A DNA stretch of 64,000 bases from Lampris incognitus (lineage: Eukaryota > Chordata > Actinopteri > Lampriformes > Lampridae), in contig NC_079224.1 in NCBI RefSeq assembly GCF_029633865.1, positions 16,437,890 to 16,501,889 of the forward strand. The letters run 5' to 3'. The notes below the pieces were generated by a model. The model was not told the DNA's origin and did no database searches. It saw nothing but the letters and a program-made list of their open reading frames with translations. The position numbers were made by a program, and so were the translations under genes. Within the stretch, counting starts at the first letter, position 1. Each line of letters begins with the position of its first letter. Below, piece by piece: positions 31,135-63,461 of this stretch.

Positions 31135-34100
31135 TCATTTCTGTCCCTCGGCTCTTTGCCTGCGGATCAGATCTGAGTAGAGCCCTCCTTTACTCAGCAG
31201 CTCCAAGTGAGTCCCAGCCTGGAAGCAAGAAAATATCAGCTGTCACATCCAATTTAAAAAAACAAAAAACAAAAAAAACAACAACAAATGACCATTAAAG
31301 TTCATATAGGATGCTCCTATATGATTCACTGTGTATTTCGGTTTTCGCAACACTAATCCTATTGAATGAGTGTTTCATCTAAGGACACCATATATATGAA
31401 GAAAATCCCACTAAAGTTTTGAAAGGAAGTGCAATACAATGGAGAGGAAACTAAACAGACACAGGAGCACTTCAATGTCCATGCACCTCACCTCTACAAT
31501 ACGGCCATTGCTCATGACACAGATAAGGTCGGCCCCTTGTATAGTGCTCAGCCGATGAGCGATGATAAGCACGGTGCGACCTTTTGTGGCTCTGTCCAGA
31601 GCCTCCTGCACCACTCGCTCAGATTCTGCATCCAGGGCACTGGTGGCTTCGTCCAGCACCAGGATGCTCGGGTTCTTGATCAAGGCACGGGCAATGGCAA
31701 TGCGTTGTTTCTGGCCACCTGACAGTGTTACACCTCGCTCACCTAGACATTCATAGGAATACAGTTATGACTGGGTGTTTACTCATCAACTCCATTCAAG
31801 GAGAATCTAGAACAGGGGTCGGGAACCTTTTTGACTGGGAGAGCCATAAAAGCCAAATATTTCTAAATATATTTCATTGAGAGCCATATAGTATTTTTAA
31901 CGTATAATAAATTAAATATGTCTTACTTTTAATGCGACTTCTGGTGCTGCATGGTTTTGCTGATGGCCTTGTAGTCTGGTTCATACGTGGTGAGGTTGAG
32001 CTTCATGCAGGCGTTGAGGCTTCCATCAGTTAAACGTGAGCGTAGGTTGGTCTTAATGTTCCTCATATGCGAGAAAGACTGTTCACATGCATATGTAGAG
32101 CCAAACATGGTCAATACGGCAATACTCACACGCTGCATTGTGTGGTATGTCACAGGAAGCTCGTTCCAAGTTTTAAGAATCAGCTGGTCTTCAGGTTGAA
32201 GATTTTTAATTTTTGTCCACTTGTGTTCCCTCGCCAGCTCTGCTCGCTGTCGCGCAAGACTTTCCAACTCTCCATTAAGTGACTTGAACTTACTCATCCA
32301 CATGTCTGATGCCTTCAGGTCAGCAACTTCCAGCTCAAAGTCTCCGATAGAGACCCCGGGGATGCATGTCAGGTCGATTTTGTCCACTGCACACTCATGT
32401 GGATGAGTGATGAACTTGAAAAGACCAGTGCGCGCACGAAATTCTCCAAAACGTGCTTTGAATGACTGCAGGAGATTGAACGTAAAGCCAGCTAGCTGCT
32501 GGAGATCCAGATGTTGAGTGGAGTCACTTGCTAAGCATGCATCTCTAAATTGTTGCAGTCTTTCAAAGTGCAGAAGACGACCTGTTTCAATGTCCCTGAG
32601 AAAGACTTCCAGCTTGCTTTCAAATGCAAACACTGCTTGTTGAAGGGATGAGATTGTATTTCCAATACCTTGCATTTTCACATTGAGCTGGTTCAGATGG
32701 CCAGTTATGTCCACGAGATAGTGAAACTGCAGGAGCCAGTCAGTGTTGTCTAGCTCAGGATGCTTGACGCCTTTCATTTCAAGAAAAGTCCGGATTTCAC
32801 TCAGGCAAGCTGCAAAACGGCTGAGCACCTTCCCCCTTGACAACCAACGCACGTTGCTGTGTAAAAGCAGACCGGGATAATGATTCCCAACTTCTTCTAA
32901 CAGAGCTTTAAACTGGCGATCATTTAAAGCTCGGGCAACAATAAAGTTGACCACTCGAATGACCAGAGACATCACCTCGCCAAGCTCCTGGCCACACGTC
33001 TGAGCGCAAAGCGCCTCCTGGTGCAGGATGCAATGAAAACTTAGGATGGCTCTCTTTTCATGTTCACGGAGAAGCGCTACAAATCCTTTGTTCTTCCCCA
33101 ACATACAGGGTGCACCATCAGTACAGACAGAAATAAGTTTATCCATCGCTAGTTTTTTTTCTTTAGCAAACTCCATGAAAGACGTGAATAAATCCTCTCC
33201 TCTTGTTGTCCCTTTCATTGGCAAAACAGCCAAGCTTTCCTCACGCAGTGTGTCACCTGCAGCATACCTGGCAATGATACTGCACTGAGATAGATGGCTA
33301 ACGTCTGTTGACTCATCTAACGCGAGAGAAAAGTATGTCCCGGCGTTTATGTCCTTAATTTGTGTTTCCTCGACTTGATTTGCCATCATGATGCTACGAT
33401 CGTGCACAGTTCTTGCTGACAGGGGCATGTCTTTTATTCGTTTGATTATCTTGTCTTTATTTGGGAAGTCATCAAACAGTTCATTGGCCACATCAAGCAT
33501 GAATGTTTTGGCATACTCGCCATCTGTGAATGACTTTCCATTCCTTACTATTGCCAAAGCCCCCGCAAAGCTAGCGGAATTCCCGTCACCTTGCTTGGTC
33601 CACACACGTAGTTGCTGCTGACTCGTTTGCACTCTCCGCTGTAGCTCCTCGCATGCCCTTTTCCTGCTGTCCCCCGCTGGATATTTCGATGCAAATGAAG
33701 CATGGTGCGTATCGAAGTGCCGCTTTATATTTGACCGTTTCATCGATGCAATTTTATCATTGCATATTAGACATACCGCAGATCCTGCTCTCTCCACAAA
33801 TGCAAATTCCTCTGTCCACGCAGCCTGGAATGCACGGTAATCATCGTCTTTTTTTCTTTTCGCCATCTTTTCCGTTACAAGGGTTGAAGCGGATAAACTA
33901 GTTGGCTATCTGATAAAATTGATTTCTTCACCTTTACAATGACCCGGACATGCTCGCGAGCCATTGGTTCCCGACCCGACCCACGGGTGACCCGTGACCC
34001 GTGAAATTTATCTTCAAAACTAATTTCTGTTTACTTTAAAATGACACAGTATTATTAAGAAATATCACAAGTATTTTAAAATCAGTTCCAAACTGATTTT

Positions 34101-47800: not shown

Positions 47801-50800
47801 ACATTAGATTGACATTTTCTGTTGGGATTTGATCCCAGACCAGTTAGGATGCATGCGTACCTCAAGGTAGTGGCTGTACCTGCTCAATTAGCTCGAACTG
47901 TGTTGTTTACAAGTTGAAAAAAAGTCTGAATTCTGGTAGCAACTAGGAATTACCAGATCATCTTCTTTTGGTTTGTTATGGATAATATCAAACCATGCTT
48001 GCCCGGCAAGTCAGGTTAAATTTATTTTGAAGTGGTTTTCCAAAATAATGTGAAGTTTTCACAACGACATTCTATTGAATTTTGATAAGAACTTAGGTAT
48101 TTAAGTCATGAAAGTGTTGAAAAGCTGACGGCTTACTCCTGGAGCAATGTGGAATAAAGCATAATAATACCACATCAGCTTTAATGCTTCAAAGCTGACA
48201 CATTAGGGTGAATTAAGACCTTTGCATTCATCCATCCATCCATTATCCAAACCGCTTATCTGGCTCTCAGGGTCGCGGGGATATTTGAGCCTATCCCAGT
48301 AGTCATGGGGCGGCAGACCTTTGCATTGTTATTGCTTATTTTGTAATGCATTTGTGAGTCGGGTCAAAACATACTTGTGTTGCTGTTTACCTCAAAGAAA
48401 CCTCGATAATCAGTAGCCCCAAGTTGCAACACTGTGGTAGTGGTTGACTTCTTGGAGGAAGTTATGTGTGCACTATGTTCAGGGGCTCTTGGAAACAAGA
48501 CAGGTGTAACTGATAGCTCATGTGTGGTAAAACTGGCCAGCTGAGTAGCAAGCAATACTGACAGCGTGGCTGGGCTAGAAGCCTGATGACCATATGACAC
48601 CTCACCAGCCAGCTGCAAGGTGAAGCCCCCACCCCCAGTTCACTGAGTTCTTTTTCCAAGATGTAGCTTAGGCCCTGCTTGTTTTTCTCTAGCAGGCCTA
48701 TTACCAATTTGCCACTGGTCTTGACCATGGATGAATGGTTGTTTATACTTTAAAGTTGATGACGCACAATACCTGCGGGGCATTCCAAATTAGGAACAGT
48801 GGATCTTGGTCTTTGGAACCACTTTCTCATAATGTCGTTAACCCTTGCTCTGTTTTTTTTTCTTCTTCTTAATCCCAGATTTGTGTGCTTAGCACCTGCT
48901 GACATTTTCTTTTGATATATCTCTAAGTAATTGGATTGTGAAATGAAATTGCATTAACCCAGAAGATCATTTAAACATCAAAATGATACAAGCTGTGGTA
49001 TGTTCATAAGGCTGCTGCTTGTTATCCAGTGTATTATAGGTTTTGACATGGAATGCACAGAAAGTCTGCTTTTTTGCAGAATGAGACAAAGCAAGAGAGG
49101 CAAGCCTGTGATGGTTTAGACATGTGTGGAGGAGAGATGCTGGTTATACTGGGAGAAGGGAGAAGGATGCTGAATATGGAGCTGCCAGGGAAGAGGAAAA
49201 GAGGAAGGCCAAAGAGGAAGTTTATGGATGTGGTGAGAGAGGACATGCAGGTGGCTGGTGTGACAGAGGAAGCTGCAGAGGACAGGAAGAAATGGAAACG
49301 GATTATGCGCTGTGGTGACCCCTAATGGGAGCAGACAAAAGTAGTAGTAGTAGTAGTAGTAGTAGTTCATAAGACATCTAACCCATAACCTGTAAACAGG
49401 AAGAGGGTGGGATTTTAATGTGACACAACATATGAAAGCAACTATTGCAAGATTCCTGATCTATATTTATCACTTATTGAGTTACATATTACTTGAGTGG
49501 TGAATTTATGTATCAACGCTAGAAGAGGGGTTTGGGGGTGGGCTGACCCTTGTGCCCACGAACACAAAATGCAAGTGTTCAATTATAATTCTGTATAATT
49601 ATAATGTCAGTTGTCCAATGAGTTTCCTCCTGTTTTAAACAATTTTTCAACTTTTGATAGGATTTCTCTGTTTTTTTTTTTGTTTGTTTACCTAGTATCC
49701 AAGAGAACAGCTGGATTATATTCCTCCTTATCATGGCAGCTATTTTTTGGCTCTATCGACTTATCAAAGTTTTCTGCAATGTCCTGAGCTACTGGGAGAT
49801 ACGGCAGTTCTACATCAAGGCACTGAAGATCAGGATGGTAAGGCCTGTATTGAACCTGAAGACCTGATTCAAAACTTGTGCCATAACCATGATTTATCCT
49901 TGGCAATATTGAAACAGCTGACCTGAGCTTATACTAAGAGATATACTGACTGGCATACAATGGCATTGAGTGTCACTGACAGGAGGTGATGGTGTCTATC
50001 TGTCGGTCTGCTTCATGTTCCTGACATTCTCTTCCCAGGATGAGCTGTGCAACTTCACTTGGCAAGAAGTCCAGGACCGACTAATCAGTTTGCAGCGAGA
50101 GCAGCAGATGTGCATCCACAAGAAAGAGCTGACAGAGCTCGACATTTACCATCGCATCCTGCGTTTCAAAAACTACATGGTGGCCATGGTCAACAAATCT
50201 CTGCTACCAGTGCAGCTGCAGCTCCCCCTGCTGGGCAATGTGGTCTTTCTCACCCAGGGCCTGAAGTACAACTTTGAACTAATCCTCTTCTGGGGGCCCG
50301 GCTCACTGTTCCAGAACAAGTGGAACCTGCACCCCAAATACAAAAAAGCTGGAAACCGCCTAGAACTTGCCCAGCAGCTTAGCCGGATCATCTTGCTGAT
50401 GGGCTTGGCCAACCTGCTGCTGTGCCCATTCATCCTAGTATGGCAGGTGCTCTACGCCTTCTTTAGTTACACTGAGGTGATCCGCAGAGAGCCTGGAAGC
50501 CTGGGTGCACGGCGCTGGTCCCTCTATGGTCGCCTTTACCTTCGTCACTTCAACGAGCTGGACCATGAGCTTCATGGGCGTTTGGGCCGCGGCTACAAGC
50601 CCACCTCCAAGTACATGAACTCCTTCACCTCACCGCTGCTGACCGTGCTGGCCAAGAACATTGCTTTCTTCTCAGGCTCAGTACTGGCAGTCCTCATTGC
50701 CTTGACAGTCTATGATGAAGATGTCCTCACAGTACAGCATATCCTGACAGCGATCACTGTGTTGGGGGTGGTCATCACAATTGCAAGGTGAGGGTAGCAG

Positions 50801-61282: not shown

Positions 61283-62145
61283 TTAAAAGCAAGCAGGTTT
61301 TACAAACAGCTTCTCTGGAGTTTATGTCTAAACAGGTAGTTCAGAATGGTAACTATTTCCTCTGCATCAGGTCCTTATGAAAAGGGGAATGATTGAGTCT
61401 CACATTTTCAAATCGAGTCACTTTATTGTTTCAGACAAATCCAAGAATATTCAGCCAACATGAGTCATTGAGAAGGTTCAGAAATGACAGATTGGAAAGT
61501 TGGACTTAAAATAACAGATTAACAGGTGGGGTCAGCCACCAGGAGAGGCCCATGATATGTCCTGTCTATGCTCATCCTCAATTTGTGTCAACCAAAACTT
61601 TTTTTTTATAATTTTTTTTGGTTTTGGCATTTCTGCTTTTAATTATTTGACAGTTTACTGTAGACAGAGATAGGAAAGGCAGGGGAGAGAGAGGGGGGCG
61701 ACATGCAGCGAAGGACCCGGGCCGGACCTGCACCCAGGGTGCCGCAGCAAGGGCCCAGCCCTGACATGTGGCACGCGCTCCACCAGGCGAGCCACCAGGG
61801 TGCTCCCAACCACCAAAACATATTTTGAACCAAATTAGTGCCCATCACTTACCAAACAATTACATGTTTAAAAAAATGATTCGTTGCTTTAACAAAATGT
61901 AGCATACACCCCAACCAACCCCCATAAAATTATGTGTGCCATGCACAGTGGGAGTGGGTGGGGGGGGCTTTCCTGGACTTTTTCAGGGGCCCAGTCATCA
62001 CTTTGTGTGAGCCAGCAGATTAACATCACAGAACAAGTACAGTACATGGCTCAAAAGATTAACATTTAAATAAATGTAAAGTCTTGGGGTGAAAACTATA
62101 CACATAAGCTTTTTCATTGAAATGAACCCACCCTAATGGTTAATC

Positions 62146-63418
62146 TTATGCAAAAACACCTCCGCCGTTTCTTCTATGTCCCGCAATTGGTGAACCAAAT
62201 CCACGTCGGCTTCCTGGTCGGCTTCCAGGTCGGCCTCCAGGTCGGCCTCCAGGTCGGCCTCTTGGTCGGCCTCGGTTTCCCCCGTGATGGCTTGTTGAGC
62301 TCCTTCTAGACCTGCTCCGCCTTGTCCTAACCCTTCCCTGTCATTACAGGGAGCAGGAAAAGAAAAAAAAATAGACATTAGTGACGTTCAGGAGGTTCAC
62401 AAAAGTGTTGTTGAACCCATGACCACTCAACTGATTTGGTCTGTGTGGTTTGGTTGACCCCAAATGTCTGCCCGTTCATTGGCAGAAACGGATGATGAAA
62501 GGACCGGTTTGTCTTGACAAATCTGCATGTGTTTAATTTTTTTGGAGCCTCAGACTGAGCAGTAGTCCAACTTAAATCGTACTTATTCCTGACTGCACAG
62601 TTCTTCCTCTCTGCATGTGTGAGAAATGATCTAACCAGGGGAGCGTGAGTTTGTTTACCTGTGGTTGTCCCTCCACTTCTGCCCTTTCACACTTCATTTC
62701 AAACGCACTGATATCACTGACGTCATGGTTTGGGTAGGTAACCTTTACTTTGCACAACATCCGTTTCTAAAAATCAAAAGAGAGAGATTGTTTTTTTCAT
62801 TGTTTGCATAAAAAAAACACCATTTATTTAACTTCAACCACAAAAAGGGTTGTAGCTGCACTGTGCAGATATGTTAACCAGTAATAATCCTGTTGGTGTC
62901 ACAGCAAAACTCATTGCTCTACCCCAGAAATCTGTGAATAATTTAGTGAGACGGTGATGTGAGACTTAGACCTACCCCGTTTCCCTTCAGAGGACACAGT
63001 TTGTGTTGATGTTCCCACGGGGAGCTTCCGACAGTGATACATTCGGTCTCTTGTGCAGGAAATGCCAGACTCTTGACTGACACTGCAGACAAGTCCACAT
63101 CCTCGGGATCCAACTAAATTAGAGAGTACAATAAACAGTAAATGGCCAAAATTAATCATAAATGAATACTCTGAATTGTTCAAATTTCATTCAGTTGCTT
63201 AAATACTCCATATTTTGTGTCAGGGTAAAGCATCTGGTCTCTTGTCTTGACATACTCACAGTTTGGATGTCGACTTGATCCAGAAGTGGGCGGTAGTTCC
63301 CCAGAGGAAATATGAAGTTAGAGAGGAACTCTTCGTAGTCAGGAGCAGCTGGCGTCTGAGCTGTCACCAGCAAAGGAACCACAGCGAGAAGGAAGAACGG
63401 ACTCATCTTTGTCTTCAT
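62146..63418 (-). CDS. camp: Cathelicidin antimicrobial peptide precursor (complete, 4 exons)
   Basis: Secreted host-defence precursor: signal peptide, cathelin domain, then a C-terminal cationic peptide released by proteolysis. Exons: 63260-63418, 62976-63113, 62659-62766, 62146-62337. All junctions are GT-AG and phase 0, giving 198 residues. ATG at 63418 is the first in the likely mRNA. Residues 1-20 form a signal peptide (FFLLAVVPLLVTA). The cathelin-like part has LDPEDVDL, QETEC and four Cys (78, 93, 104, 125) with CPLKGNGKRMLC, like the CDFKENG-containing core of cathelicidins. Exon 4 encodes 63 residues with 18 Arg, no Lys and no acidic residue: an N-terminal GRVRTRRSRSRRSS, six 12-bp repeats giving GRPG-type units, and the end SPIAGHRRNGGG. 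Its N-terminal RTRRS and Gly-rich tail recall cod and salmonid cathelicidins. The longest ORF over exon 4 is in another, acidic frame. The four-exon plan is that of cathelicidin genes. Chemerin, another cystatin-fold protein, was considered; the basic last exon argues against it. Confidence 0.88.
62200..62271 (-). repeat. 12-bp coding minisatellite in the cathelicidin mature peptide
   Basis: Six units of (G/A)GCCGACC(T/A)GGA with small variation, each adding Gly/Ser-Arg-Pro-Gly/Arg or a variant. Unit number is likely to vary between alleles or species. Confidence 0.85.
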
Positions 63419-63454: not shown

Positions 63455-63461
63455 TTTTATA
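63455..63461 (-). promoter_or_regulatory. TATA box of the cathelicidin gene
   Basis: TATAAAA on the minus strand, 37 bp upstream of the start codon. Transcription about 25-30 bp downstream would leave a 5' UTR of only about 10 nt, so the start site may lie slightly upstream or the downstream ATG at 63406 may also be used. Confidence 0.7.

Follow-up and report, generated by a model that had tools for sequence, protein, structure and literature searches.

One locus in the window, i.e., the whole 64,000-nucleotide stretch analysed here (C17:16437890-16501889 in a 1.48 Gb assembly of 537 contigs), is in all likelihood an intact, single-copy teleost cathelicidin gene that encodes a secreted precursor. 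The locus runs from position 63418 down to 62146 on the minus strand, and its four exons give a product of 198 amino acids. The exons and a promoter element were located as follows.

Exon 1: 63260..63418, minus strand, 159 nt; leader and start of the cathelin domain.
Exon 2: 62976..63113, minus strand, 138 nt; cathelin domain with Cys78 and Cys93, ending in CPLKGNG.
Exon 3: 62659..62766, minus strand, 108 nt; cathelin domain with Cys104 and Cys125.
Exon 4: 62146..62337, minus strand, 192 nt including the TAA stop; putative processing site GRVRTRR and Arg/Gly/Pro-rich peptide, ending in FGSPIAGHRRNGGGVFA.
TATA box, TATAAAA: 63455..63461, minus strand, about 40 bp 5' of the ATG; sequence read directly.

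All four exons were free of internal stop codons. Because every exon length is a multiple of three, the three introns are all in phase 0. Each intron has GT-AG borders, i.e., the donors gtgagt, gtaggt, and gtaaac, with all three acceptors ending in ag. The original prediction had joined four phase-0 exons into 198 amino acids, and the exon lengths and intron borders agree with it. The vertebrate cathelicidin plan, in which the last of four exons holds the mature peptide, was found at the locus, and four exons are given for most fish cathelicidins in a review (PMC4690011). The TATAAAA element probably marks the core promoter, which would leave the 5' UTR short. On the other side of the gene, AATAAA was not found in the 645 bp 3' of the stop (window 61500-62145, minus strand), and the ATTAAA nearest to the stop lies 503 bp 3' of it. 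The 3' UTR is therefore long, or a different signal is used.

The leader of exon 1 shows a hydrophobic run, MSPFFLLAVVPLLVTA, after MKTK, and residues 5-20 have a mean Kyte-Doolittle value of 2.14. From this hydropathy, the leader MKTKMSPFFLLAVVPLLVTA was predicted as a signal peptide. The precursor has cysteines at positions 78, 93, 104, and 125 only. All four lie in the prodomain, which has a net charge of -8. In the Pfam-A search, Cathelicidins (PF00666) was the sole family listed, with 16.8 to 19.0 bits, i.e., under the curated cut-off of 21. The full-length product had an E-value of 0.0087, and three shortened versions of it had 0.0035, 0.0022, and 0.0018. The NCBIfam search gave no match, and phmmer against the PDB, with the precursor and the prodomain as queries, found no cathelin and returned one unrelated chain at E 1.7.

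The prodomain was also aligned with pig cathelin (1kwi). The Smith-Waterman score was 57. When the fish domain was shuffled 5000 times, no shuffle reached this score, the best one scoring 56. The motifs ETxC and LCxxKxNG and the next Cys align between the two domains, and exon 2 is separated from exon 3 directly after the NG of LCxxKxNG. Mammalian cathelicidins have an exon break at the same spot, just past this NG. The cathelin domain of the pig protegrin precursor (1kwi) likewise has four cysteines, but they are spaced 10-10-16, compared with 14-10-20 in the fish prodomain. The mature peptides of pig protegrin and the present gene are unrelated.

The exon 4 product has 63 residues, of which 18 are Arg, 17 Gly, 8 Ser, and 6 Pro. 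It has no Lys and no Asp or Glu, and the charge of this tail is +18. A leader, a four-cysteine prodomain, and a 63-residue tail with 18 Arg and no acidic residue had been predicted, and each of these counts was recovered. Most fish cathelicidins carry the elastase site QKIRTRR in exon 4, and their mature peptides have 47-69 residues and charges of +8 to +17, as summarized in the same review (PMC4690011). Exon 4 of the present gene starts with GRVRTRR, i.e., VRTRR stands in place of the fish IRTRR and the QK is not kept. Depending on the assumed cut, the mature peptide would be 56 or 60 residues long with a charge of +14 or +17, and both forms fall inside the reported range.

Each reading frame of exon 4 was scored against six reference peptides from the table text of PMC11762488, hagfish among them, and each comparison was set against 2000 composition-preserving shuffles. 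The frame encoding the Arg-rich peptide, hereafter the basic frame, scored 20 to 89. Its score was reached by 2/2000 shuffles for lenok, 3/2000 for ayu, and 7/2000 for trout CATH-2a. The basic frame was not above its shuffles for trout CATH-1 (209/2000), codCath (312/2000), and hagfish HFIAP-1 (1410/2000). A five-sequence alignment with four of the six references, i.e., cod, ayu, lenok, and trout 2a, with trout CATH-1 and hagfish left out, had 11 invariant columns, including G.GS.IAG. The C-terminal GS.IAG motif of linear teleost cathelicidins is present in the exon 4 peptide.

The cathelicidin identity stands above chance because Pfam listed only the family that had been named beforehand, no shuffle reached the score with pig cathelin, and exon 4 exceeded nearly all of its shuffles for three of the six references. 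The identity given in the original prediction is supported by the Pfam family, albeit under its cut-off, the pig cathelin shuffles, and the fish peptide motifs. Its N- and C-terminal likeness to cod and salmonid peptides was also recognized, in the VRTRR start and the GS.IAG tail. The GRPG repeats had been regarded as a surprise, which did not hold, as salmonid cathelicidins already have them. In the table text of PMC11762488, trout rtCATH_1 carries IGRPGGGS repeats and rtCATH-2a carries RGRPGSGSRPGFGS.

The locus is the only copy found in the 1.48 Gb genome. A PF00666 profile search of the whole genome gave no match and missed the known locus too, so it says nothing on copy number. Since this search was useless for absence, a protein search and an exon 4 DNA search were used. 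The protein search gave 10 matches. Four of them are the exons of the locus, and the remaining six (E 0.11 to 9.8) were read as chance or low complexity. The exon 4 DNA search hit a single place. A search for the piscidin family gave no match, with its controls equally silent. A peptide pattern fitted 12 stretches in viral contigs, and by tblastn not one of these encoded a relative.

Exon 4 is also covered by an open frame of acidic character and by a tandem repeat.

Acidic stop-to-stop ORF: 62133..62387, minus strand, 84 aa; a different frame that spans exon 4, considered non-coding.
12-bp tandem repeat: 62200..62273, minus strand, 6.2 copies with 90% matches; translated as GRPG in the coding frame and, one frame on, as ADLE.

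Between stops, the acidic EAD frame is longer than the basic one (84 aa vs 64 aa). It was considered as the true coding frame of exon 4 or as the source of a second protein. Against the six references it scored 18 to 30. For four of them, with scores of just 28 to 30, it modestly exceeded the shuffles of its own sequence (17 to 26/2000 reached the score), and for the other two 706 and 997/2000 shuffles did so. The third frame scored 18 to 33, reached by 17/2000 shuffles for lenok and by 324 to 1778/2000 for the other references. However, the acidic frame is open only below 62387, and no AG joins exon 3 to it anywhere from 62420 to 66 bases into exon 4. Between 62420 and 62200, read downward, 18 AGs were counted, of which 1 leads to the basic frame, 12 to the third frame, and 5 to the acidic frame. 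The acceptor of the basic frame is the first AG and has the sole good tract, with a pyrimidine share of 0.70 in the preceding 20 bases. The five acidic-frame AGs lie 67 to 124 bases into exon 4, with pyrimidine shares of 0.30 to 0.45. The acidic frame appears to be open because the 12-bp tandem repeat by itself keeps all frames open; repeated 12-mers were open in all three forward frames in 53% of random draws and 80% of draws of the same composition (20,000 draws each). In addition, the IAG motif common to other fish peptides falls in the basic frame. A coding role of the acidic frame is scarcely credible on these grounds, and the frame was rejected for its lack of a suitable acceptor near the exon start, the openness explained by the repeat, and the IAG read in the basic frame. 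The basic frame is taken as the coding frame. The gene had been described as hidden behind a longer acidic ORF. This applies to calling by raw ORF length and goes no further, as the acceptors favour the basic frame, to which a splice-aware gene caller should be led.

The locus could also be a decayed or silent cathelicidin copy, i.e., a pseudogene whose exons are still open. The Pfam score under the cut-off, the missing AATAAA, and the still putative expression would fit such a copy. They are set against four open exons, GT-AG at each intron, and a TATA box, and the genome searches turned up no better cathelicidin copy. Decay or silencing is therefore very improbable, if slightly less so than a coding acidic frame. 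Judged from its sequence, the cathelicidin gene is probably a working one.

As a working cathelicidin, the precursor may be handled as in cod and salmonids. The acidic, cystatin-like cathelin prodomain (-8) would accompany the +18 tail until a protease cut. By analogy with cod and salmonid peptides, an elastase-like or basic-site protease would cut at the VRTRR site where exon 4 begins and free a linear peptide of 56 to 60 residues with a charge of +14 to +17. Such a peptide may bind anionic bacterial surfaces and damage bacterial membranes, and it may also modulate leukocytes. The cod peptide codCath is described as having high activity against Gram-negative bacteria and Candida albicans and almost none against Gram-positive bacteria (PMC3978493), and codCath1 and CATH_BRALE are described as immunomodulatory (PMC11233757).

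A more specific reading joins several features, i.e., a Lys-free, single-copy cathelicidin with an Arg/Pro/Gly repeat in a non-gadiform host with a large MHC class II beta array, a GRPG core that acts partly inside bacteria, and a 12-bp repeat that varies allele length in whole GRPG steps. Proline-rich peptides act inside bacteria. Indels in exon 4 have been reported between cod alleles (PMC4451034). Taken as a whole, this combination is speculative and rather unlikely.

The neighbouring genes were surveyed from ORFs of at least 110 aa, so smaller genes in between are possible.

ABCB8-like ABC transporter exon: 31414-31764, minus strand; matches to protein chains.
658-aa open frame: 31932-33905, minus strand; hAT dimerisation and Spin-doc zinc-finger matches, adjoining the ABCB8-like exon.
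ATG9 exon: 49970-50788, plus strand; ATG9A scores higher than ATG9B.
Obscurin-like first exon: L012:877, i.e., window coordinate 74877, beyond the window, plus strand; Pfam I-set domain.

The ABC transporter exon was called ABCB8-like because, in the best 60 of 202 matches, the ABCB8 chains scored 130.0 and 129.7 bits vs at most 117.7 for ABCB10. The matches above ABCB8 in these best 60 were transporters that either matched over two stretches or bore more distant names. The 658-aa frame is a transposase-like ORF that possibly lies inside an intron of the ABC gene. The I-set-bearing start at coordinate 74877 is presumably that of an obscurin-like gene. The ATG9 exon and this first exon flank the cathelicidin, one on each side, and this gene order could show where the locus belongs among fishes. 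In literature titles and abstract openings, nothing settled the reach of cathelicidins into percomorph fish or the obscurin synteny, and absence is not claimed.

Elsewhere in the genome, the MHC class II beta domain was found at 51 places over the cut-off. Of these, 43 lie on the same strand within 1.7 Mb (C22:39.09-40.82 Mb), and this cluster is a large MHC class II array. The remaining matches were placed elsewhere on C22 (3) and on C26 (2), C117 (2), and C191 (1). Atlantic cod is reported to be without MHC-II (PMC4451034). A critical note concurs that the evidence points to the lack of a canonical class II system across Gadiformes, and calls the timing preliminary (PMC6081975). Given the 51 class II beta matches, the host is therefore probably non-gadiform.

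The gene is apparently an ordinary, intact new cathelicidin of a family that is already known. It adds a probably non-gadiform fish to the cathelicidin family and is a clear case of a repeat-built antimicrobial peptide where raw ORF length misleads; general ideas on cathelicidins are unchanged. The teleost cathelicidin genes given in the 2015 review are those of salmonids, ayu, and cod (PMC4690011). Cathelicidins are also named for hagfish, Japanese eel, and Dabry's sturgeon (PMC3978493, PMC8468504). In surveys of antimicrobial peptides from golden pompano and black rockfish, the passages containing the word cathelicidin belonged to the introduction or references only (PMC10608450, PMC8533284), and no cathelicidin was identified according to an article on a lionfish transcriptome (PMC8468504). 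These three articles are weak evidence on how widespread the gene is.

Among the known fish peptides of the table text (PMC11762488), those closest to the present one include salmonid CATH-2 and CATH_BRALE of trout and lenok, which have in common with the present peptide the core RGRPGSGSRPG(F/G)GS.IAG and the RR start. Unlike these, the present exon 4 is without Lys and carries the GRPG unit in tandem. Trout 2a also differs by two Cys and a longer C-terminus. Atlantic cod codCath is alike in its length of 67 aa, its charge of +15, its SRS start, and its GSTIAG tail, with SRS coming after RTRR in the present peptide. Its Gly/Ser repeats contain one Pro, whereas the present peptide has GRPG with 6 Pro. 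Ayu aCATH is alike at both ends, with the start RMRRSKSG and the tail GSSIAG, but its middle consists of GSK repeats in contrast to the GRPG repeats of the present gene.
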